A DNA stretch of 35,481 nucleotides. Source: Armatimonadia bacterium (GTDB taxonomy: Bacteria; Armatimonadota; Zipacnadia; Zipacnadales; JABUFB01). Below, one piece after another: positions 3-18,844 of this stretch. The stretch lies in assembly GCA_039679385.1 (NCBI GenBank), contig JBDKVB010000088.1:1-35481 (forward strand). Reading direction: 5' to 3'. Every line of letters begins with the position of its first letter. Within the stretch, counting starts at the first letter, position 1. The translations under genes were made by a program, and so were the position numbers. The notes under the pieces are model-generated. The model was not told the DNA's origin and searched no databases. It was given only the letters and a program-made list of their open reading frames with translations.

Positions 3-812
3 ATGACAACTCAGGAGTTCAAGGATATCGCAAAGGGCATGGGCGTCGATCTGGTCGGCGTTGCGCCGATCGACCGCTTCTCGCTCTTCTCGCCGGAGGC
101 CCATCCCTGCGCCATACAGCCGCAGACTCGCTCCGTGGTCGTGCTTGGCTTCAGCATTCCGCGCGGTGCCTTGCAGGGCCTCGAGTCCGGAACGGCCGCC
201 TACACGCTCGGTCTGGGGGTGCCCGGTTCCGTGGCTTTGGAGACCACCTACCAGCTGTGCCGCAAGATTGAGAACGAGGGCTGGGAGGCCACGCCGGTGT
301 TCCAGCAGGCAGGGGACATGCGTCGGCAGGGAGTGGCAGTCGCCCCGGACAAGCCCGAACCCAACGTAATCCTGGAGTTTGACTACGCCGCCCATGCCGC
401 AGGACTGGGTGAGGTCGGCCGAGGCAAGTGGCTGCTCACGCCGGACTTCGGCCCGCGGCAGATGCTCACGATCATCCTCACCGACTGGGAGCTTGAGCCC
501 AACGCGCCCTTCGCCGGGAAGGTCTGCGACGAATGTGGAGCCTGCGCCAAGGCCTGCCCGGCCGGTGCCCTGGACTGCGGCAACGTCCACTGCGCACCTC
601 TCAGCGAGGGCAAGGCATGTTGGTACACGCTGCGCATCGAGAATTGCCGCGTGTGCAAGACGGGAACCACTCGACTTCCCTACTCGACCGGCTCCGAGCC
701 CTTCCGTCTGGGAGCAGCCTGCGGTCGAGCCTGCGTCGCGCACCTGGAAGATGGCGGCAAGCTCAATCGCAAGTTCGCTTCGCCCTTCCGATCGGCGAAA
801 GAGGGAGCGTGA
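3..812 (+). CDS. QueG-like 4Fe-4S protein (first of a tandem pair)
   Basis: A 269-residue cytosolic Fe-S protein related to the C-terminal half of epoxyqueuosine reductase (QueG). A GLGEVGRGKWLLTPDFGPRQ segment (about residues 134-152) matches the QueG-type GLGxxG...FG(P/S)R block. It is followed by a ferredoxin motif CxxCxxCxxxCP (C175, C178, C181, C185). A second Cys-rich part near the C-terminus (CRVC, then CGRAC) could hold another cluster. True QueG is near 380 residues with a cobalamin-binding part, so this shorter protein is probably not QueG itself. The ATG lies two bases from the window edge, so its ribosome binding site cannot be seen, but the N-terminus aligns with that of the next gene. 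The next gene starts 6 bases after the stop, so the two are surely cotranscribed. The role is unknown; electron transfer or a reductase activity is likely. Confidence 0.8.
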   Translation: MTTQEFKDIAKGMGVDLVGVAPIDRFSLFSPEAHPCAIQPQTRSVVVLGFSIPRGALQGLESGTAAYTLGLGVPGSVALETTYQLCRKIENEGWEATPVFQQAGDMRRQGVAVAPDKPEPNVILEFDYAAHAAGLGEVGRGKWLLTPDFGPRQMLTIILTDWELEPNAPFAGKVCDECGACAKACPAGALDCGNVHCAPLSEGKACWYTLRIENCRVCKTGTTRLPYSTGSEPFRLGAACGRACVAHLEDGGKLNRKFASPFRSAKEGA

Positions 813-818
813 TCTCCC

Positions 819-1856
819 ATGCTGACGAAGGAAGCTCTGCGTGACTACGCCTACAACGTCGTGAACGTGGACAAGCTGGGTGTCGCCAACATCGAGCGCT
901 TCAAGGACGCCCCGGCCGACATGGACCCGCGCAAGATCATGCCCAAGGCGCGCTCCGTGGTTGTCTACGTCAAGCGCATCCTGCGGGGAACCTTCCGTGG
1001 AGTGGATGAGGGCACACACTGGCCCTCCTACCATATCTTCAGCTACGCGGGCCTCAACCACATGCTCGGGGTCGCCAACTACAAGCTGGCGCGCTTCATC
1101 GAGCAGAACGGTTACGACGCCGCCTCTCTCTCCGGGCAGGCCAGTGATCGCGAGTTCGGGCAGCGCGGCACCGTGGTCATCCAGCATCGCATCGCCGCCA
1201 CCCTTGCGGGCCTCGGTGAGATGGGCTGGTCAAAGGTCTTTATGACCCGCGAGTTCGGACCGCGGCAGCGGATCGGCATCCTGCTGACCGATGCTGAACT
1301 GGAGCCCGATCCCATCGAGACCGGAGTGCTATGCGACCGCTGCAAGCGCTGTGTTGCCGAGTGTCCGGCAGGGGCCATCAGTCGCGACAAGTCCGTCTCC
1401 ATCGAGGTCGAGGGCCATCGCCTCGAGTGGAACGATCTGGACCTGGGCAAGTGCAAGCTCACGCACTTCGGCCTCAACAAGCGCAGTGGCCCCTTCTTCG
1501 CCAAGCGCTTCCCGGGAGTGCGCATGGCGATCGGGGAGCAGGAGGTCACCTGGCTTGAGGCCTGGGACCTGGGGCGGACGATGTTCCCGACCATGCCCGC
1601 CTTGCAGGCTCTCTCTGCGCATCCCGTCGCAGCCTGTGGCGCTCGTGGCTGCATCCTGGGTTGCGTTAAGCACGTGGAGAAGACCGGCGGCGTTGCCAAC
1701 ACTTTCAGGACCCGACCGGTCTTCAGCGAGGAGAAGCCCTGGCGTCTGGGCGAGGAGCCCACGCACCACTTCGCCGAGCACAAGGGGCTGGAGTACGATC
1801 CGGACGCCCCGGCCCCTGAAGAGCCAAAGGAAAGAGCCGACAAGGACTGGTATTGA
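819..1856 (+). CDS. QueG-like 4Fe-4S protein (second of a tandem pair)
   Basis: A 345-residue paralog of the preceding gene. It keeps the same landmarks: GLGEMGWSKVFMTREFGPRQ (about 131-150), the ferredoxin motif CDRCKRCVAECP (C172, C175, C178, C182), and a C-terminal ACGARGCILGC segment that matches CGRAC in the first copy. It is longer because of about 60 extra residues between the cluster motif and the C-terminal Cys group, plus a charged acidic tail. The ATG follows GAGGGA at a suitable distance. The family is related to epoxyqueuosine reductase but occurs in anaerobes as stand-alone 'epoxyqueuosine reductase-like' proteins of unknown substrate. Tight spacing suggests that the two act together, perhaps as a heteromer. 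That is inference. Confidence 0.8.
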   Translation: MLTKEALRDYAYNVVNVDKLGVANIERFKDAPADMDPRKIMPKARSVVVYVKRILRGTFRGVDEGTHWPSYHIFSYAGLNHMLGVANYKLARFIEQNGYDAASLSGQASDREFGQRGTVVIQHRIAATLAGLGEMGWSKVFMTREFGPRQRIGILLTDAELEPDPIETGVLCDRCKRCVAECPAGAISRDKSVSIEVEGHRLEWNDLDLGKCKLTHFGLNKRSGPFFAKRFPGVRMAIGEQEVTWLEAWDLGRTMFPTMPALQALSAHPVAACGARGCILGCVKHVEKTGGVANTFRTRPVFSEEKPWRLGEEPTHHFAEHKGLEYDPDAPAPEEPKERADKDWY

Positions 1857-1955: not shown

Positions 1956-2711
1956 ATGCTCGGACTGAGCCTCGCGCTGACGACGTTGTACCAGACGGGT
2001 CTGACGGACCTCCCGGCTGAGATCGCCTGTGAGGGCAAGTACACACACCACCTGCAGGGCATTGCCGGGAACGGTGTGGACACGATCTACTGGAGCTTCA
2101 CCACGGTCCTGCTGAAGACCGACCTTGAGGGGAAGGTCCTGGCCCGTGCGGACGTCCCCACTCACCACGGTGACCTTTGCCTGGCCGGAGACAAGCTCTA
2201 CGTAGCCTGGTCGAACAAGTTCAACCAGCCCGGCGCCGACTCGAAGGTCTACATCTACAAGGCCGACGACCTGTCCCTGCTGTCGATTGTGCCCGTGCCT
2301 GAGGTCAGCTTCGGCTCCGGCGGCATGGACTGCTGCGACGGCCACTTCTTCATCATCGGTGGCCTGCCCGAGGGTTACGAAGAGAACTACGTCTACGAGT
2401 ACGACGGCGACCTGCGCTATCTGAAGACCCATGTGCTGCCCTCGGGCTATACCAAACTCGGCATCCAGACTGCCTGCTTCCATGGCGACTACTGGTGGTT
2501 CGGCTGCTACACGGTGGAGGGCAAGAAGGGCCTTCTGAAGGCCGACCGGAACCTGAAGCTCGTGGGCACCTACGACGTCTCTCCGGCCATCGGGCTCATC
2601 GGCTGGGGCAAGGACCGGTTCCTGATGTCGAAGCACTTCGGCGAGAAGTGGCAGGCGAAGGTCGTCCCGATGAAGCCCGATGACAAGCTTGGCCTCGTCG
2701 CTGCTCACTAA
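1956..2711 (+). CDS. Conserved-looking beta-propeller-like protein of unknown function
   Basis: A 251-residue protein with no catalytic motif that I recognise. It is rich in short beta-strand/turn units with recurrent Y/W and D-G turns (HHLQGIAGNGVDTIYWSF, HHGDLCLAGDKLYVAW, MDCCDGHFFIIGG, FHGDYWWFGCY, IGLIGWGKDRFLMS). This is the pattern of a small beta-propeller or of a sensor domain built of kelch/SMP-30-type blades. The histidines of HH-L-Q-G and HH-G-D could bind a ligand or metal. The N-terminus is only weakly hydrophobic, so secretion is doubtful. AAGGAGAG stands just upstream of the ATG. Similar hypothetical proteins occur, to my recollection, in Planctomycetes-type genomes. I assign no function. 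Confidence 0.6.
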   Translation: MLGLSLALTTLYQTGLTDLPAEIACEGKYTHHLQGIAGNGVDTIYWSFTTVLLKTDLEGKVLARADVPTHHGDLCLAGDKLYVAWSNKFNQPGADSKVYIYKADDLSLLSIVPVPEVSFGSGGMDCCDGHFFIIGGLPEGYEENYVYEYDGDLRYLKTHVLPSGYTKLGIQTACFHGDYWWFGCYTVEGKKGLLKADRNLKLVGTYDVSPAIGLIGWGKDRFLMSKHFGEKWQAKVVPMKPDDKLGLVAAH

Positions 2712-2755: not shown

Positions 2756-4063
2756 ATGAAACCAGTAAAGCCGCAGCGCTTCTACATCACCGAATGGGCC
2801 GCCCAGGACCCTCGGTGTGTCGCACGCATGGAAGGCATGATGGCCGGCTTCGGAGTCCCGCTCGACCGCGTGCAGTTGCTTCGTGAGGAGGACCTCGAAC
2901 AGACAGCCCGCGAGCGTGACTGGCTCGACCTCGACGTTCGCCAGGGCCGGTCCTTCTTCACCGGCGACCCTGATGTGGTCTTCAACAAGTTCCGCTGGCC
3001 CAGTGCCGAGGAGCGACAGGCGAAGCTGGCCGAACTCCCGGTGTTCCAAAGCAACCCCGGCCAGTTCTACACGCGCCAGTTCCTGCGCATGCTCTACGGG
3101 ATCGAGGACTTCTACCACTACGAGGACGGCAAGGGCAAGCGCGACCGAGGGACCACCTGCTGGAGCCTGTATGACCTGCACTCGGCGCTTGGCTGCTTCC
3201 ACAAGTGCGGGTACTGCCGTCGCGGTCGCGTCACCACCCTCGGACTGAATCTCGAGGAGTGGCTCGATCACGTCGATGAGCTCATGGACCGGAACCCCTG
3301 GCAGAAGGTCTTCCGGTATGATGTCGAGACCGACTGCCTGATCCTCGAGCCCGAGTACGGGGCCTGCCGGATGCTGGTCGAGCACTATGCGGCGCTGCCC
3401 GACAAGTACATCATCCTCTTCTCGAAGAGTGACAACGTCGACTTCCTGCTCGACCTCGACCACCGAGGCCACACCATCATGCTCTGGACGCTGGCGACTC
3501 CGACCGTCAGTCGGCGGATTGAGGTCGACACCGCAACCACCGAGCAACGCCTCGAGGCCGCACGAAAGTGCCAGAAGGCCGGGTACACCGTGCGGTTCAA
3601 GTTCAAGCCCATCATCCCCGTTGCGAACTGGCGCGAGGAAGCGACGGACATGCTGGAGAAGCTCTTCGAGGCCGTCACTCCGGACAACCTGAGCATGGAG
3701 ATGCTGTTCTTCGACAACGTCGCGGAGTTCAAAGAGCTCTTTGACGAGGACCTCTTCGACCCCGAACTCGTGGCGATGTTGGAGGAGCATGAAGCCTCCG
3801 GACAGATGACCGACCGCGGGCATCCCTTCCCCTTCGAGTTCCGGGCCCAGGTGTACGAGCACTACGCCTCCGAGATCAGGCGGCTCTCACCGGAGACCCG
3901 GATGTCTCTGTGTGCAGAGACGCGCGAGATGTGGGATCGGCTGGGACCGGCTCTGGGTGCGACGCCGGACGCTTTCGCCTGCAACTGCGGGCCGGTGGCA
4001 GTCCCCGGCATCAGGCCCGAGCAACTCGCGACCACCGAGGAAGGCAAAGCCATCCTGCGCTAA
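2756..4063 (+). CDS. Spore-photoproduct-lyase-like radical SAM protein (copy A)
   Basis: A 435-residue radical SAM protein of the SPL (SplB) superfamily. The cluster motif CxxxCxxC (CFHKCGYC) gives C147, C151 and C154. Family-wide blocks follow: LEPEYG, the SKSDNVDFLLDLDHRGHT segment (the SplB equivalent reads TKYEHVDHLLD), GYTVRFKFKPIIPVANWREE, and a C-terminal block with AETREMWDRLG. SplB repairs the spore photoproduct using a conserved Cys a few dozen residues after the cluster (C141 in Bacillus). By eye that position is not Cys here, although C194 and C204 are near, so the reaction may differ. A C-terminal CxCGP motif (C409, C411) is shared with copy B. GAGGTAG precedes the ATG by 7 bases. 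It is convergent with copy B. The organism shows no other sign of sporulation in this window. Confidence 0.8.
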   Translation: MKPVKPQRFYITEWAAQDPRCVARMEGMMAGFGVPLDRVQLLREEDLEQTARERDWLDLDVRQGRSFFTGDPDVVFNKFRWPSAEERQAKLAELPVFQSNPGQFYTRQFLRMLYGIEDFYHYEDGKGKRDRGTTCWSLYDLHSALGCFHKCGYCRRGRVTTLGLNLEEWLDHVDELMDRNPWQKVFRYDVETDCLILEPEYGACRMLVEHYAALPDKYIILFSKSDNVDFLLDLDHRGHTIMLWTLATPTVSRRIEVDTATTEQRLEAARKCQKAGYTVRFKFKPIIPVANWREEATDMLEKLFEAVTPDNLSMEMLFFDNVAEFKELFDEDLFDPELVAMLEEHEASGQMTDRGHPFPFEFRAQVYEHYASEIRRLSPETRMSLCAETREMWDRLGPALGATPDAFACNCGPVAVPGIRPEQLATTEEGKAILR

Positions 4064-4097
4064 GCCGACCCTCGCGACAGGTTCATACACAAAGAGA

Positions 4098-4131
4098 AGC
4101 GCCGGCCTGGACTCGAACCCAGACCGGCGCT
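4098..4131. terminator. Hairpin between two convergent genes, probable bidirectional terminator
   Basis: A 13-position stem (4098-4110 with 4119-4131, one C-A mismatch) with an 8-base loop lies between two gene ends that face each other. The tails on both sides are only modestly T-rich (TGTCGTTACT on plus, TCTCTTTGTG on minus). It is probably used from both directions. Confidence 0.6.
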
Positions 4132-4168
4132 GTCGTTACTCGTGCAGTAGGGCAGGGATGCCACCAGA

Positions 4169-5470
4169 CTACTCGGTCGTCACCTTCTCGGGCGTCGCCA
4201 CATCCCACGGGTCCTGGGTCAACCTGCGCAGTCCCGGAATCACCAGCGGCCCGCATCCGCACACATAATCGCTCCCGGTGAAGCCGAGTTTCGGTCCCAA
4301 CTCCTCCCACATCTCTCCGGACTCCGTCGAGAGCGCCAACGGGACCTCTTTGTCATACTTGCGGACCTCGTCGATGACGAACTCGTAGATCGTCTTGCGC
4401 ACGTGGTGGGGGAAGGGGCGCACCGACCGCGAGCCAAGCTCCTCGACCGCGTCCCGCGCAGCGTCCAGTGCCCAGGGGTCGATGAGGCTCGTGTCGGCAA
4501 GCCTCAGCAGCGTGTCGTAGTCCATCCAGGCCAGCGTGAAGAGGGTGAGGTTGTCCGGCCGAGTCTGCTCGAAAACCAGGCGCACCATCTCCGCCAGCTC
4601 TTCACGCCAGTTGACCACCGGCACGATCGGCTTGAACTTGAACCGCGCGGTGTAGCCCCAGGACGCCACCTTCGCAGCCGCTGCCACCCGCTCTTCCATC
4701 GTCCCGGTGCGGCCCTCCATGATCTCGCTCTGAGTGCGCCCGGTCAGGCTCCACGTGAGGATCGTGTGCCCGCGGTGATCGAGGTGCTCCAGGAAGTCCA
4801 CGTTGGCGCTCTTGGTGTGAACCGTCAGGTACCGGTCGGGTGTGCTCGCGAAGTACTCCACCAGCATCTGCATGCCGCCGTACTCGGGCTCCAGGGCCAG
4901 CGCCTCGGCGTCGTCATCGTACAGCCAGCAGAGCTCCCAGGGGTTCTTCTCCACGAGTTCCTGGAGCTTCACTCGGTACTCCTTGAGATTGGCCGTCGCC
5001 GTCATGACGCCGGTGAAGGGGCAGTAGAAGCACTTGTGCGGGCAGTTGGCTCCGAGGTGCAGTCGCCAGGCCGGACGACAGACTCCACCGGGATTGCCGG
5101 GGCACAAGGAGGCGCGGCCCGGGTTGGCGTAGGAGAAGGCATCGTAGCCGAAGAGCCTGTGCAGAAGCCGAAGCGGCGCCTCCGGGAGGCGCTCCTTGAT
5201 CTCCGCTTGCCGCTCCGGCCAGTTCCCGTCCCAGCAACTGCGCCCGACATACATGATCGGGTCTTCTGCCGGTGGTGGCATGCCCATGTGTACGTATCGT
5301 GCGCCCCAGTTCTCCGCTGTCGCAAGGTCGGGCACTTCCTCTTCCTTCACGACGTGCGTCGGCGTGCTCGCGGGCAGGGCCTTCCGCAGTCGCAGGAATA
5401 CCTCCAGCATGTCCGGGTCCTCGAGCACGTCCCGCAAGACGTACAGATGCGGCGGTCGAAGATCGTACAT
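4169..5470 (-). CDS. Spore-photoproduct-lyase-like radical SAM protein (copy B)
   Basis: A 433-residue paralog of the convergent gene at 2756-4063. The radical SAM motif CPHKCFYC gives C143, C147 and C150. It shares LEPEYGG, TKSANVDFLEHLDHRGHT, GYTARFKFKPIVPVVNWREE, the EMWEELGPKLG block and the C-terminal CGCGP motif (C404, C406). An extra Cys-bearing stretch before the cluster (SLCPGNPGGVCRPAW) is absent from copy A. I chose the ATG at 5470 because GGGAGG precedes it by 7 bases; a TTG two codons upstream is also open. The Cys used by SplB as hydrogen donor is not at the matching position, so the substrate is uncertain. The two copies are clearly homologous yet diverged, which suggests two different jobs or a heterodimer. 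Confidence 0.8.
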   Translation of the reverse strand: MYDLRPPHLYVLRDVLEDPDMLEVFLRLRKALPASTPTHVVKEEEVPDLATAENWGARYVHMGMPPPAEDPIMYVGRSCWDGNWPERQAEIKERLPEAPLRLLHRLFGYDAFSYANPGRASLCPGNPGGVCRPAWRLHLGANCPHKCFYCPFTGVMTATANLKEYRVKLQELVEKNPWELCWLYDDDAEALALEPEYGGMQMLVEYFASTPDRYLTVHTKSANVDFLEHLDHRGHTILTWSLTGRTQSEIMEGRTGTMEERVAAAAKVASWGYTARFKFKPIVPVVNWREELAEMVRLVFEQTRPDNLTLFTLAWMDYDTLLRLADTSLIDPWALDAARDAVEELGSRSVRPFPHHVRKTIYEFVIDEVRKYDKEVPLALSTESGEMWEELGPKLGFTGSDYVCGCGPLVIPGLRRLTQDPWDVATPEKVTTE

Positions 5471-5729
5471 CGTCAAACCTCCCGAGCGTAATGCTGCACG
5501 TCGGGCTCTTCCCCGTCTGGCCGAGATGTCCTTCCGGCAAGATCAGCTCACTCGGGTCTTCAGGGAGAGGGAGCGCCTTGCACGCCGCGAGGAAAGGGAG
5601 GAGGGCGAAGAGTGAGGGGCGAAGTCGGCGGTCTGGCCGAGACGACGACGGTTGAGACTTGGTCCCGTCACGCATCGCAGTCTGTCATGTATGCCGTCCT
5701 GCGGTCGGACGTGACCCCTGGAGAGCCCT

Positions 5730-6170
5730 GTGATCTATCTGATCCTGTCAGTGCTGTGCTACCTGGCCACGAGTGTGACGATGAAGCTGGCTGCCGTGCG
5801 TGGACTGGATGCGATCGAGGTCAACCTGTCCCTGCGCGTGTCGGGGACGATCCTGACGATTGTCCTGCTGCTGATCACCACCGCGAGCCTCACGCAGCCG
5901 CAACTGCCGCAGGCGACTGCCCTCGGCGTGTTCAGCGGCATCTGCACCTTCCTGTCCGGCTACTACTCACTCCGCGCTCTGGACTTCGGCCCCCTGAACA
6001 CCACGTGGTCGGTCCTGCGTATGGCCACGGTGATCCCGGTCCTGGCCTCGATCCTCGTCTGGGGCGAGCTGCGGTCTGCCACTGAGCCCCACGAGATCGT
6101 CACGAAGCTGGCCGGCGTCGCCTGTCTCCTGGCAGCCCTGACTCTCCTGGGGCGTGGTCAGCATGAGTGA
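5730..6170 (+). CDS. Half-size EamA-type membrane protein, subunit 1
   Basis: A 146-residue, very hydrophobic protein with about four membrane segments (roughly residues 1-20, 33-52, 62-82, 92-110, with a last helix at about 123-140). This is one EamA/DMT repeat, half of the usual 10-helix transporter. The start is GTG, with GGAGAG a few bases upstream. Its stop lies inside the next gene (8-base overlap if that gene starts at 6163), so translation of the two is coupled. DMT family members export or exchange metabolites, amino acids or sugars across the inner membrane. The substrate cannot be told. Confidence 0.75.
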   Translation: MIYLILSVLCYLATSVTMKLAAVRGLDAIEVNLSLRVSGTILTIVLLLITTASLTQPQLPQATALGVFSGICTFLSGYYSLRALDFGPLNTTWSVLRMATVIPVLASILVWGELRSATEPHEIVTKLAGVACLLAALTLLGRGQHE

Positions 6171-6627
6171 CACACTGCTTCCGCCGCAGACCTCGGAGGA
6201 GGCTGCCGACTCCTTCGTGCAATGGCGCAAGACGGTCGCCGTCGCCTTCCTGGCCCAGGGCTTCGCCGGGGTTGCTCAGAAGACTCTCGCCTCCCTGGAG
6301 GGCGAGTACCGCCTCTACTTCCTCTGTGCCACCTACGTCGTCGCCGCGCTTCTCTCCTACATACTTTACCGGCAGCGGAAGGCTCGCGTGACGCTCCAGG
6401 GGATACTGCTGGGAACCCTGGCGGGCACCACCTGCGTCCTGAGCGTCTACTTCCTGCTGGCGGCGCTCAAACACACCGGCGGGGTCGTGGTCTTCTCTGT
6501 AGTCCCGGCGGCAGCCCTGACGCTGACGCTCCTCGCAGGGCGGATCGTCTTCAAGGAACGCCTCTCGCGTGAGCAGACCCTTGGCATGATCCTGGCCGTC
6601 GTGGGCATCGTCGTCGTGCAGCTCTAG
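6163..6627 (+). CDS. Half-size EamA-type membrane protein, subunit 2
   Basis: A 154-residue second EamA half with a soluble N-terminus of about 25 residues, then membrane segments near 27-45, 55-70, 80-105, 110-130 and 136-154. The KTVAV..LAQGFAGVAQKTL opening and the C-terminal VVFSVVPAAALTLTLLAGRI / GMILAVVGIVVV helices fit the family. I chose the ATG at 6163, overlapping the previous stop; a GTG at 6154 is also open. The protein most likely pairs with the preceding half to make a complete DMT transporter, as in SMR-type two-gene pairs. It is convergent with the next gene, with a gap of only 32 bases. Confidence 0.75.
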   Translation: MSDTLLPPQTSEEAADSFVQWRKTVAVAFLAQGFAGVAQKTLASLEGEYRLYFLCATYVVAALLSYILYRQRKARVTLQGILLGTLAGTTCVLSVYFLLAALKHTGGVVVFSVVPAAALTLTLLAGRIVFKERLSREQTLGMILAVVGIVVVQL

Positions 6628-9797: not shown

Positions 9798-10526
9798 TCA
9801 GTCGGCGCCACCGACTGGCACGCCAGATGGCTTGTAGTCCCAGACACGGCCGTCCAGCAGTCGTCCTGCCCTCTTCTTGTGGAACCCACCCCACTGCTTG
9901 AAGAAGAAAGGCACGTTGGCTGCCAAGCATTGGTCGCGGATGTCGCGCACCCATTGTCCGTCCATTGCCCTAGCGCGGGGGCCTGACTCGCCCCCGACGA
10001 TGATCCAGTTGATGCGACCCAGATCGAGGTTCGGCAACGGACCAAGAAGGGGCTCCAGAGAGGCAAACTTGACCCTCGCGGGCGTACGGCGCAGGTGGTC
10101 AAGGCGGAACCTGTAGTCACCGTTCTCAACACTGACGCCCATCCAGACGTTGTCTGGCCAGGGCAGACTGGGAGCCAACTCCAGTAGCCGCTCAGAGCGT
10201 TTGGTCAGGACCTGAAAACAGTGCCATCTGGCTGCGACCATGACGTCGAAAACCGCGTGGATGAACCCCTCGGGAACGCGGTCGTGGAACAGGTCACCCA
10301 TGGAGTTGACGAATATCGTGCGTGGCCGTTTCCAGGATAGGGGGAGACTCAGGGTAGCCTCGTGTACATTCACCTCGAATCCGCGAACGTAGTTGGGTTG
10401 ACCCATGGCCTTGAGACGGTGCGCCATCCGTTCGGCGTAGCAGTTGAGACAGCCGGGGCTGATCTTGCTGCACCCCGTAACCGGGTTCCAGGTCGCCTCG
10501 GTCCATTCAATGGTTGTGGCTGCCAC
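9798..10526 (-). CDS. Three-Cys-motif protein, phage Gp37/Gp68 family (DUF5131)
   Basis: A 242-residue protein opening with [20 protein letters not shown], then CLNCYAE. The three cysteines (C19, C26, C29; C-x6-C-x2-C) define this family and resemble a radical-SAM-type cluster site. Later family blocks are visible: [58 protein letters not shown] and FFFKQWGG. The start is GTG and shares one base with the TAG of tcmP (TAGTG), so translation is coupled. The family is linked to phages and mobile islands and is usually paired with TcmP; the biochemical role is not established to my knowledge. A different frame continues after the stop with a plausible tail (about 9719-9797), which may mark an old frameshift at the C-terminus. 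Confidence 0.85.
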
Positions 10527-11362
10527 TAGTCAGCACCCCTGTCGCGGTACTTCTTGAATATCTGTTCGACGATCTTGCTCCCCACGGCGTTTGGGGACGC
10601 GAAGAACAGGTAGTACAGGACCGCGTTCTTGCTGTTGCGCATCGGCAGTGGCTCTGGCACATAGCGAAACCCGGCCACGTCCCTGAGCCGCTTCCGGAAA
10701 GCGTCTGCCAGCGCGTCATTGCCGGTCTTGCCGGGCATGTCGTCAAAGAGCCTGCCCTGGGTCGTGTAGGCGGCATCCCGCCAGCTACCGTCGCCCCAGA
10801 ACCTAGTCAGCCTCTCAGCCTGTTGGGGGTCGATGAGCTCGGGGTTCCTTCTGAGGACCCCTCTGTTTATGTCCATCACCATGAAGTTGAGGAATATCTC
10901 AACGCTTCGCATCTCACCGGCCGCCGACATCACCTGCCAGTCGAGATCGATGTTGTAGGGGTCTAGAAGGCAGAGAGCCCGTCTGTATCTGTTGTACGGG
11001 ACTAGGGGGAACACCTTCTCGATGAGTATCTCGTTGCAGTCCCCTGAGTACGTTGTAACGTCGCGGTCCGTGCGGCCCCGCAGCGAGTCCTCCAGCATGT
11101 CAAGCTTGTCGCCATCCGCGTCGATCAGATGGTATTCGCAGAACGGCGGCGAGACGTTGAGGGCGTTCGTCGGCGAGCCAGGGATGAGTTGGCCGGTCGC
11201 CTTCGATATGTTTACACCCGGCCCAGCGAAGGCATCCACATAGAAGTGCTCGAGTGCTGGGTCTGTCTGGTTTGACATGATCGTTGAGTAAGCTGACGCA
11301 TAGTCGCGAACGATTTCGAGTTTCAGCTCAGTCCAATAGCCTACCTGGTCGACGGGCGACAT
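10526..11362 (-). CDS. tcmP: Three-Cys-motif partner protein TcmP
   Basis: A 278-residue protein with the features of the TcmP family. These are a [16 protein letters not shown] helix, [10 protein letters not shown] (about residues 40-49) resembling methyltransferase motif I, HLIDAD as the acidic motif II, and [11 protein letters not shown] (D134-P135-Y136), which resembles a catalytic motif IV. This suggests a Rossmann-fold SAM-dependent methyltransferase. The substrate is unknown. GGAGGT stands 7 bases before the ATG. It is cotranscribed with the three-Cys-motif gene that follows, the partner from which the family takes its name. Base use looks slightly less GC-biased than in the neighbours (codons such as ATA, TAT and AGT are more frequent), in line with acquisition by transfer. 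Confidence 0.88.
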
Positions 11363-16247: not shown

Positions 16248-16261
16248 AGGCCACCTATACT
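16233..16261 (+). promoter_or_regulatory. Near-consensus sigma-70 promoter of the riboswitch-nrdDG operon
   Basis: TTGACA (16233-16238), a 17-base spacer, and TATACT (16256-16261). The predicted start near 16267-16268 is only one or two bases before the first paired base of the riboswitch aptamer, so promoter and aptamer fit each other precisely. Confidence 0.85.
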
Positions 16262-16268
16262 TCCTCTT

Positions 16269-16460
16269 GCTCGCGGTTCGCCCCTGTCGTCAGGGGCGTC
16301 GCAAGAGGGAAGCCGGTGTGAGTCCGGCACTGCCCCGCAGCGGTATTGGGAAACGACAGCCGTCATTGAGCACTGTCCCGATTGGGATGGGAAGCGACGG
16401 CCAGTAGGCTGGACCAAGCCATACGGTCCGCGTCCCTGAGTCCGAAGACCTGCCGAGAGC
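16269..16460 (+). promoter_or_regulatory. Cobalamin (B12) riboswitch
   Basis: The conserved core is plain. GGTTCGCCCCT pairs with AGGGGCG, then come AAGAGGGAA, the GCCGG/CCGGC stem with the GTGTGAGT loop, CACTGCCCCGCAGCGGTA, and at the end a canonical B12 box at 16439-16454 (AGTCCGAAGACCTGCC). A closing stem can be drawn between 16269-16276 and 16453-16460. In known cases binding of adenosylcobalamin lowers expression downstream by ending transcription or hiding the ribosome binding site. The gene downstream is a B12-independent class III RNR, so the expected logic is that the cell shuts off this enzyme when B12 is available for a class II RNR. The direction of the response is inferred. Confidence 0.95.
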
Positions 16461-16705
16461 TTGCGCCTTAGGGCGCGATGACGACTGCGGCCTCGTGGGA
16501 GGCTGTGGAAGGGCTTCTCGGCGTCCGTGTCGACTCCGCAGGACACCGCTTTCCCCTTACGCATCTCTCCTCCACGACCGGCCGCTATCTCGCTCGAGGG
16601 GAGCGAGGTCGCGGAAGCGTCTTCGGCCGGTTCTGCTGTTCCGAAGCCGCGTCTCCAGGCGCACCTCTGCCTCCCTCCGAGTCCATCTCCCGGGAGGAGT
16701 CAGCC
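16461..16705 (+). promoter_or_regulatory. Long structured leader between riboswitch and nrdD (expression platform)
   Basis: No gene is assigned in these 245 bases. Hairpins visible are 16463-16476 (5-bp stem, TTAG loop) right after the aptamer, 16589-16607 (perfect 7-bp stem, 5-base loop) and 16617-16650 (9 bp with one mismatch). The nrdD ribosome site GGGAGGAG sits in a 10-base palindrome (CTCCCGGGAG, 16687-16696) and is also complementary to CCTCCCTCC at 16670-16678, so it can be hidden. No T-run follows any hairpin, which favours control of translation. The whole stretch is open in frame with nrdD from an ATG at 16478, but that ATG has no good ribosome site and the extension resembles no NrdD N-terminus. 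Confidence 0.6.
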
Positions 16706-18844
16706 ATGGTGTCCAGCACCCACGAAGCCCAGACCCGCTCCACCGCACACTTCACCCACCTGCAGAAGCGCGACGGTCGCATCGTGCCCTTCGACCTGAG
16801 CAAGATCGCCCGTGCCATCGGCCGGGCCGGGCAGGCCACCGGCGAGTTCGCTGAGGACACCGGTCAGCACCTCGCCTTGCGTGTCCTGGCTCTAGCGCAG
16901 ACCGCGCTGCCATCCCAGACCCCGACCGTGGAGCAGATCCAGGATCTGGTCGAGGAGACGCTGCTCACCTCCCCCTTTCGCAAGACCGCCAAGGCCTACA
17001 TCCTCTACCGCGACCAGCACGCGCGGATCCGCGAGATGGTGCACCAGGCCGATCTGGAGATGGTCGACCACTACCTGGAGCGGTTGGACTGGAAGGTGAA
17101 GGAGAACAGCAACATGGGCTACTCCCTCCAGGGGCTGAACAACTACGTTGCCAGCCAGGTCACCGAGATTTACTGGCTCAACAAGATCTACTCCCCGGAG
17201 GTCCGCGAGGCGCACCTGGAGGGTGACTTGCACCTGCACGACCTGGGCCTGCTCTCCGTGTACTGCGTGGGGTGGGACCTGCAGGATCTGCTGCGTTCCG
17301 GGTTCCGTGGCGCTCCGGGTAAGGCGGAAAGTCGACCCGCACGTCACTTCCGCTCGGCCCTGGGGCAGATCGTCAACTACCTCTACACCCTGCAAGGCGA
17401 GGCGGCCGGCGCACAGGCCTTCTCCAGCTTCGACACGCTGCTGAGCCCCTTCATCCGCTATGATGGGCTGAGTCCCCGCGAGGTCAAGCAGGCCCTTCAG
17501 GAGTTCATCTTCAACCTCAACGTGCCCACGCGCGTCGGGTTCCAGACGCCCTTCACCAACGTAACCCTTGACCTGCAGCCGCCCACGACGCTTGCCGACC
17601 AGCCCGTACTCCTCGGTGGGGAGCCACAGTCGCAGACCTATGGCGACTTCGCCGAGGAGATGACCGTCTTCAACCGCGCCCTCCTGGAGGTGCTGGCCGA
17701 AGGCGATGCGCGGGGACGTGTCTTCACCTTCCCCATCCCCACCTACAATATCGCCGCCGATTTTGACTGGGAAGCACCAGGCATCGAGCGGCTCTGGGAA
17801 GTCACGGCGCGCTACGGGATTCCCTACTTCGCCAACTTCGTGAACTCCGACTTGTCTCCCGAGGACGCCCGCTCGATGTGCTGCCGACTGCGTCTCGACG
17901 TCCGCACTCTCCAGCGGCGGGGCGGGGGGTTGTTCGGTGCCAATCCGCTGACCGGCTCCGTCGGTGTCGTCACCCTCAACATGCCTCGTCTGGGTTACCT
18001 TGCCACCGATGAGGGCGACTTCCTGCGGCGTCTTGACCGCCTCATGCAGATCGCCTGCACCAGTCTCGAGACGAAGCGCAAGGTCCTTGAGCACTTCACG
18101 GAGGAGGGCCTGTACCCGTACACGCGTTACTACCTGCGCGACGTGTATGCGCGCTTCGGTAGCTTCTGGCACAACCACTTCTCTACCATCGGGCTTGTGG
18201 GGGTGAATGAGGCGTGCCGGAACCTGCTGCACACCGATGTGGGAACTCCGGAGGGGCAAGCCTTTGCCGTGCGCATCCTTACTCGCATGCGCGATCGTCT
18301 GGCTGCCTTTCAGGAGGAGACCGGGCACCTCTTCAACCTCGAGGCCACGCCCGCAGAGGGTACCAGCTACCGTCTGGCCCGGCTGGATGCGCAGCGCCTC
18401 CCGGGGATCCTCAGTGCCTGTGACGAGGGTGACGGCAGTGCTGAGCCCTTCTACACCAACTCGACTCAGCTTCCGGTCAACTACACCACCGACGTGTTTG
18501 AGGCCCTCGACCTACAGGATGAGCTGCAGACGCTCTACACCGGAGGCACCGTGCAGCACATCTTCCTGGGCGAGGCTGTGCCGGATCCCGGCGCGGTCAA
18601 GAGTTTCGTGCGCAAGGTCTGCGAGAACTACCGGCTCCCCTACTTCACGGTCACGCCGACCTTCTCCATCTGTCCGACCCATGGCTATCTGAGCGGCGAG
18701 GAGCCCAGGTGCCCGCAGTGCGGCGCAGAGACAGAGGTCTACTCCCGCGTCGTGGGATACCTGCGCCCGGTCTCGCAGTGGAATGCAGGCAAGCAGGCGG
18801 AGTTCGCCCGGCGCAGCACCTTCCGCATCGAGGCAGCGCAGTGA
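16706..18844 (+). CDS. nrdD: Anaerobic (class III) ribonucleoside-triphosphate reductase
   Basis: A 712-residue glycyl-radical enzyme that makes deoxyribonucleotides without oxygen. The N-terminus is an ATP-cone (about residues 14-105, KRDGRIVPFDLSKIARAI). The catalytic barrel includes NMGYSLQGLNNYV, LHLHDLG, a Cys pair in SMCCRLRLD, and SVGVVTLNMPRLGY. The C-terminal zinc site is CPTH...CPQC (C656, H659, C669, C672), followed by the radical loop RVVGYL with Gly684 and then WNAGKQAEF. This C-terminus resembles the Thermotoga type. The ATG at 16706 has GGGAGGAG 6 bases upstream. Its stop overlaps the GTG of nrdG by four bases. Expression is governed by the cobalamin riboswitch. All key residues are present. 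Confidence 0.95.
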   Translation: MVSSTHEAQTRSTAHFTHLQKRDGRIVPFDLSKIARAIGRAGQATGEFAEDTGQHLALRVLALAQTALPSQTPTVEQIQDLVEETLLTSPFRKTAKAYILYRDQHARIREMVHQADLEMVDHYLERLDWKVKENSNMGYSLQGLNNYVASQVTEIYWLNKIYSPEVREAHLEGDLHLHDLGLLSVYCVGWDLQDLLRSGFRGAPGKAESRPARHFRSALGQIVNYLYTLQGEAAGAQAFSSFDTLLSPFIRYDGLSPREVKQALQEFIFNLNVPTRVGFQTPFTNVTLDLQPPTTLADQPVLLGGEPQSQTYGDFAEEMTVFNRALLEVLAEGDARGRVFTFPIPTYNIAADFDWEAPGIERLWEVTARYGIPYFANFVNSDLSPEDARSMCCRLRLDVRTLQRRGGGLFGANPLTGSVGVVTLNMPRLGYLATDEGDFLRRLDRLMQIACTSLETKRKVLEHFTEEGLYPYTRYYLRDVYARFGSFWHNHFSTIGLVGVNEACRNLLHTDVGTPEGQAFAVRILTRMRDRLAAFQEETGHLFNLEATPAEGTSYRLARLDAQRLPGILSACDEGDGSAEPFYTNSTQLPVNYTTDVFEALDLQDELQTLYTGGTVQHIFLGEAVPDPGAVKSFVRKVCENYRLPYFTVTPTFSICPTHGYLSGEEPRCPQCGAETEVYSRVVGYLRPVSQWNAGKQAEFARRSTFRIEAAQ

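Follow-up and report, generated by a model that had tools for sequence, protein, structure and literature searches.

SPL-fold radical SAM proteins of uncultured anaerobes lack both relay residues of spore photoproduct lyase and may hold an auxiliary iron-sulfur cluster

Introduction

Spore photoproduct lyase (SPL) is a textbook radical SAM enzyme in which a Cys-Tyr relay recycles SAM. The relay residues are C141 and Y99 (PMC3742179). The SPL of Clostridium acetobutylicum, SPL(Ca), functions with another donor Cys, C74, sited elsewhere than C141, on the side of the pocket opposite the Tyr (PMC5368176). Because this enzyme uses C74, loss of C141 alone is no proof of non-SPL chemistry, and such a loss would not by itself exclude SPL activity. 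Other radical SAM enzymes, namely, MoaA, TYW1, MiaB, RimO, and lipoyl synthase (LipA), hold auxiliary clusters with three Cys (PMC5352715). In LipA, the auxiliary ligands are three Cys and Ser308, and an S308C variant retains the cluster and alters the product (PMC13232139).

Here, we describe two SPL-like genes, A and B, from an Armatimonadia bacterium (Armatimonadota; Zipacnadia; Zipacnadales; JABUFB01). The genes lie on a stretch of 35,481 nucleotides, referred to here as the window (GenBank assembly GCA_039679385.1, contig JBDKVB010000088.1, forward strand). Zipacnadia have been described as living in anoxic sediments, probably as obligate anaerobes (PMC10290634).

Results

Genes A and B are convergent, with their stop codons 105 bp apart (Table 1). 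The open frame of B extends over positions 4169 to 5476 of the minus strand and has 435 codons if read from the TTG, the same number as A. We placed the start of B at the downstream ATG, using the MYxLxP start that is conserved across the family. The two proteins are paralogs, with 37% identity over 405 columns (E, 3e-85). The original prediction, made from the DNA letters, described a convergent pair of diverged SPL-like proteins with CxxxCxxC and the SPL core. This description was borne out: both are real, full-length ORFs, and both lie outside true SPL. The hairpin between the stop codons is likely able to stop transcription from both sides. It also holds a stretch resembling a tRNA T arm, GGGTTCGAGTCC, which has one copy in the genome; ARAGORN called no tRNA.

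Table 1. Features of the A/B locus, in positions of the window
Feature	Position	Strand	Basis or remark
RDH/QueG-like 4Fe-4S protein; opens the run of four co-directional genes that A closes	3..812	+	Profiles
Second RDH/QueG-like 4Fe-4S protein	819..1856	+	At 7 loci, relatives precede SPL-like genes on the same strand
251-aa protein without family (P0009)	1956..2711	+	Profile searches
ORF A, SPL-like radical SAM protein, 435 aa	2756..4063	+	ORF, Pfam, model
A Cys135, 12 residues ahead of the radical SAM motif	3158..3160	+	Cys in 100/101 members
A radical SAM motif C147xxxC151xYC154, then R155 at the SplB Tyr99 site	3194..3217	+	Alignment
A Val190, column of the SplB H-donor Cys141	3323..3325	+	Alignment
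A E198-P199-E200, family signature	3347..3355	+	101-102/103 members; absent from SplB
A Cys386	3911..3913	+	Position is Cys or Ser only
A C409-N-C411-G-P, tail past the SPL end	3980..3994	+	Both Cys in 98/98
15-bp hairpin between the A and B stops	4098..4131	.	Likely two-way terminator
ORF B, SPL-like radical SAM protein	4169..5470	-	ATG at 5470; upstream TTG at 5476
B C406-G-C408-G-P (406-410)	4247..4261	-	Sequence
B Ser383, equivalent of A Cys386	4328..4330	-	Alignment
B radical SAM motif C145xxxC149xYC152	5021..5044	-	Alignment
B Cys133, equivalent of A Cys135	5078..5080	-	Alignment
B Cys125, its one truly extra Cys	5102..5104	-	Low-confidence loop

Both proteins matched the Pfam SPL profile (PF20903) above its gathering cut-off of 27, A with 73.1 bits (E, 2.5e-20) and B with 50.8 bits (E, 1.5e-13). 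The matches were partial, covering profile positions 79 to 266 (A) and 85 to 254 (B) of 338. Neither protein reached the cut-off of TIGR04070, the SplB equivalog (81.2 bits for A and 59.3 bits for B; cut-off, 400), or that of TIGR03886, the SPL family protein (47.7 and 44.7 bits; cut-off, 437.55). Neither matched TIGR03942, the anaerobic sulfatase-maturating enzyme (anSME). The only PDB sequences that A and B matched were those of SPL.

Structure prediction of each protein, one of the checks named in the original prediction, gave the SPL fold for both. The AlphaFold models, made with alignments of 74 (A) and 61 (B) members, had pLDDT values of 96.5 and 93.7. Residues 2 to 387 of A matched residues 2 to 341 of SPL with a Z score of 27.4, and residues 3 to 384 of B matched with a Z score of 28.3. 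SPL stood apart from all other solved structures, a result that Foldseek supported; the next-best fold had a Z score of about 15 or lower. LipA scored about 13, a value equaled or exceeded by many other radical SAM enzymes, with matched ranges that extend into the CxC tail. Since the structural match to SPL stops at residue 387 of A, this tail is an addition to SPL. The family runs approximately 48 residues past the SPL end, and the CxCGP motif sits in that tail, which is ordered in the model of A (pLDDT, about 96).

We examined 103 members of the family, mostly from uncultured anaerobes. Members were detected in 28 of 61 relatives and in 32 of the 291 genomes of the phylum, with at most six per genome. 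The named carriers are Candidatus Zipacnadia/WS1, other Armatimonadota, Lentisphaerae, Verrucomicrobia, Planctomycetota, Poribacteria, Latescibacterota, Omnitrophota, and Asgard archaea. Searching the genome to which the window belongs gave no true SPL; ten other genomes of the phylum had strong SPL-family matches (E, ≤1e-30), and no SPL match was found in phages. We built a quick tree (no bootstrap) of 127 proteins, including Bacillus velezensis SplB and SPL-family proteins of plasmids and relatives. The family formed one side of a branch with an SH-aLRT of 100, with the SPLs outside; comparison with SplB, also named as a check, thus gave a separate clade and no nesting within SPL. Our literature search, which reached a minority of the subscription journals, found no description of the SPL-like family. 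We conclude that this SPL-fold family is real and under-described.

The original prediction held that the H-donor Cys of SplB was absent from both proteins. We read the C141 column from an alignment containing real SplB sequences, in which the donor motif of B. velezensis SplB is EASC, not EAAC. At this column, A has V190 and B has D188, as had been predicted in that neither is Cys, and none of the 103 members has Cys. The second relay residue is also missing: Tyr occupies the Tyr99 site in none of 101 family members, compared with 21 of 21 SPLs and other reference homologs. This column is free of alignment doubt because it adjoins the last cluster Cys. SplB Y97 is kept in all 101 members. As judged from sequence, A and B are not true SPLs: the relay residues are lost, the scores are far under the cut-offs, and the clade is separate. 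The "spore photoproduct lyase family protein" sequences of Deinococcus and Streptomyces (L201-L208), together with the related loci L195, L196, and L207, have Glu at the C141 column and keep Tyr99.

An auxiliary cluster of the LipA/MoaA kind calls for three or four conserved extra Cys, with Ser allowed, and the family has C135, C/S386, C409, and C411. In L095, the one member that lacks C135, a Cys stands two residues before that site. Position 386 is Cys in 64 members and Ser in 33, with no other residue. We considered whether this choice trades with an upstream Cys and found no correlation (Cys with an upstream Cys, 30; Cys without, 33; Ser with, 17; Ser without, 15). The CxCGP ending was correctly predicted for both proteins (residues 409 to 413 of A) and is absent from SplB. 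An extra Cys pair that had been noted in B was half right. C125 is extra and lies in the single low-confidence loop of B, residues 122 to 127; C133 is not extra, because it is a family-wide Cys that is present in A as C135. In a phmmer search, the best hit of B was the SPL C140A/S76C mutant (4rh0), with C133 aligned to Cys76. According to the study of that mutant, Cys74(Ca) reportedly corresponds to Ser76(Gt).

Sister groups keep the tally of extra Cys with the ligand places shifted. In the L110 group, these are C135, C386, and CxC. The Spirochaete/Marinimicrobia group has C(-20), CC(-13,-12), and LC(386), each in 11 of 11 sequences, and no CxC. A steady number of about four extra ligands at shifting places would fit a second metal cluster, and Ser308 of LipA offers a precedent for Cys/Ser exchange at a single ligand (PMC13232139). 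The Spirochaete/Marinimicrobia sequences (L177-L187) all carry CPG..CC ahead of the radical SAM motif and LCxE close to the C terminus; they represent another uncharacterized family, with a likely second cluster.

We next considered gene context. The four co-directional genes that end in A are separated by gaps of 6, 99, and 44 bp, and the same order of two Fe-S genes, the 251-aa gene, and an SPL-like gene is repeated in a relative (G016:C171, L046), where the SPL-like gene belongs to the sister clade of A. Among the relatives, RDH/QueG-like genes lay less than 3 kb from an SPL-like gene at 5 loci, with 0.28 expected (Poisson P, about 1e-5); widening the count to 6.5 kb gave 7 loci, with 0.56 expected (P, about 2e-6). 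At such loci they were always upstream and co-directional. Since this test was chosen after the pattern was seen, and since the module of two Fe-S genes and P0009 also occurs in a genome that has no SPL-like gene (G019), the association is suggestive only. The tandem RDH/QueG-like genes and the 251-aa orphan are a recurring module (G016:C171, G019:C72, and G022:C89), with about 10 Fe-S copies per genome. We rejected P0009 as a partner: it occurs in 15 of 61 genomes and adjoins an SPL-like gene only in the window and in G016.

No neighbor cluster was common to most members, and a conserved operon context was therefore rejected. Gfo/Idh/MocA, sulfatase, and DegT neighbors were spread over positions 1 to 6 and look like background; together with fucosidases, they fit a background of carbohydrate degradation. 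Elsewhere in the window, a cobalamin riboswitch (RF00174; 104 bits) at positions 16257 to 16471 of the plus strand lies just upstream of an ORF at 16478 to 18844. A DUF5131/mobile-pair-A-like protein is encoded at 9798 to 11362 of the minus strand beside the three-Cys-motif partner TcmP (TIGR04474; 201 bits). Two overlapping short membrane-like ORFs at 5730 to 6627 of the plus strand, the first a weak EamA match, are perhaps a split EamA-type transporter.

A functional pair of A and B was also suggested in the original prediction. Six family paralogs are scattered over five contigs of the genome. We counted 68 members whose flanks extend at least 2 kb on each side; apart from A and B, none had a second family member within 6 genes. 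In the tree, A and B fall in different subclades, each with its own orthologs: A clusters with orthologs of five other genomes of the same order and of Lentisphaerae and Verrucomicrobia, and B clusters with L081 (G016) and next with another paralog of its own genome. The presence/absence pattern, which had been named as a check, showed A orthologs in other genomes in the absence of B orthologs. On the basis of copy number, tree, and adjacency counts, we rejected a functional pair. We conclude that A and B likely act independently and that their adjacency is likely incidental.

Discussion

SplB (TIGR04070; PDB 4fhd series) shares with A and B the full fold (Z scores of 27 to 28), CxxxCxYC, and a match to Pfam SPL. 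Identity is only 17 to 22% of aligned columns, and A and B differ from SplB in having neither C141 nor Y99, in forming a separate clade, and in adding the EPE signature, C135, C/S386, and the CxCGP tail. The C. acetobutylicum-type SPL resembles them in having a Cys before the radical SAM motif, a likeness seen by phmmer via the S76C mutant rather than the Ca sequence; A and B differ in lacking Y99 and in having further conserved Cys. TIGR03886 proteins of Deinococcus and Streptomyces have the SPL core, and several lack Cys at the C141 column, but they keep Tyr99, have neither C135 nor CxC, and form a separate clade. LipA has a radical SAM barrel with an added C-terminal tail, and its ligand set of three Cys and one Ser is like the three Cys and Cys/Ser proposed here. 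In contrast to LipA, A and B lack CX4CX5C and RSSY and have a single conserved upstream Cys; their extra Cys come from other places, and that part is not homologous. The Spirochaete/Marinimicrobia and L110-L113 groups share the pre-cluster Cys and LCxE, and the L110 group also CxC, but identity is 23 to 29%, and the Spirochaete group has CPG..CC instead of CxC.

The reading that we favor, tentatively and at somewhat less than even confidence, is that A and B represent an SPL-fold radical SAM family with an auxiliary [4Fe-4S] cluster, a probable substrate other than a DNA photoproduct, and independent action of A and B. C135, C/S386, C409, and C411 would ligate the cluster close to the active site: three Cys would be joined by a Cys or Ser at the unique iron, comparable to LipA (three Cys and Ser) or MoaA/TYW1 (three Cys). 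The 5′-deoxyadenosyl radical would abstract H from a substrate carbon, and the auxiliary cluster would then accept an electron, bind the substrate, or donate sulfur. In contrast to SPL, the enzyme would consume SAM rather than regenerate it. Different paralogs likely act on different substrates, and electrons may come from the Fe-S protein encoded upstream. A DNA photoproduct is an improbable substrate, because the family is multicopy and its members lie among sugar, sulfatase, Gfo/Idh, and Fe-S genes. Two points temper the cluster assignment: CxC is an uncommon cluster spacing and could instead be Zn binding or redox active, and C135 also fits a relocated H donor.

The latter is the main rival explanation, to which we assign a clearly lower likelihood. 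C135 (C133 in B) would be a relocated H-atom donor like C74 of SPL(Ca), with CxC re-reducing it or relaying the radical, and the enzyme, having no auxiliary cluster, would carry out SPL-type back-donation with DNA or some other substrate. The alignment of C133 with Cys76 of the 4rh0 mutant, the natural use of C74 by SPL(Ca) (PMC5368176), and the retained Y97 are consistent with this idea, but it must accommodate the loss of Tyr99, otherwise kept in every reference homolog, and it leaves the C/S-only position 386 and the shifted Cys of the Spirochaete group unexplained. The tail, moreover, is modeled as ordered and not as a swinging arm.

It is improbable that A and B are diverged lyases repairing DNA photoproducts or other nucleic acid damage, with SPL function retained on a changed lesion. 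The full SPL fold and the lack of any other SPL in the genome would fit, but both relay residues are missing, the clade is separate from SPL, six paralogs are present in a lineage of anoxic sediments, and no repair genes are among the commonest co-directional neighbor families. We consider it very unlikely that they are sulfatase-maturating or other peptide-modifying enzymes. Sulfatases make up 7 of 106 co-directional neighbor genes, but some such adjacency is expected by chance because the genome has 42 sulfatases; two canonical anSMEs are already present, elsewhere than A and B, and no conserved small precursor ORF was seen among gene calls of at least 60 aa. Finally, a functional pair or heterodimer is scarcely credible, since the adjacent, convergent arrangement that suggested it precludes a shared operon, is seen nowhere else among the flanked members, and is not required by A orthologs that occur without B orthologs.

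Under the auxiliary-cluster reading, and with slightly less confidence than we give that reading itself, the SPL relay Cys and Tyr may have been traded for an auxiliary [4Fe-4S] cluster with a C/S fourth ligand, supporting nonrepair chemistry by paralogs that are specialized by substrate in uncultured anaerobes. For example, a sugar-type substrate or a peptide could undergo sulfur insertion, oxidation, or rearrangement. Because only Cys and Ser occur at position 386, a LipA-like hypothesis can be put to a direct test. If our reading is true, this large sister family, which has the SPL fold, neither relay residue, and a Cys set like that of a second cluster, would show how the SPL scaffold was repurposed. 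It would also caution that genes of uncultured phyla annotated as "spore photoproduct lyase," as many as six in one genome, are probably misnamed.
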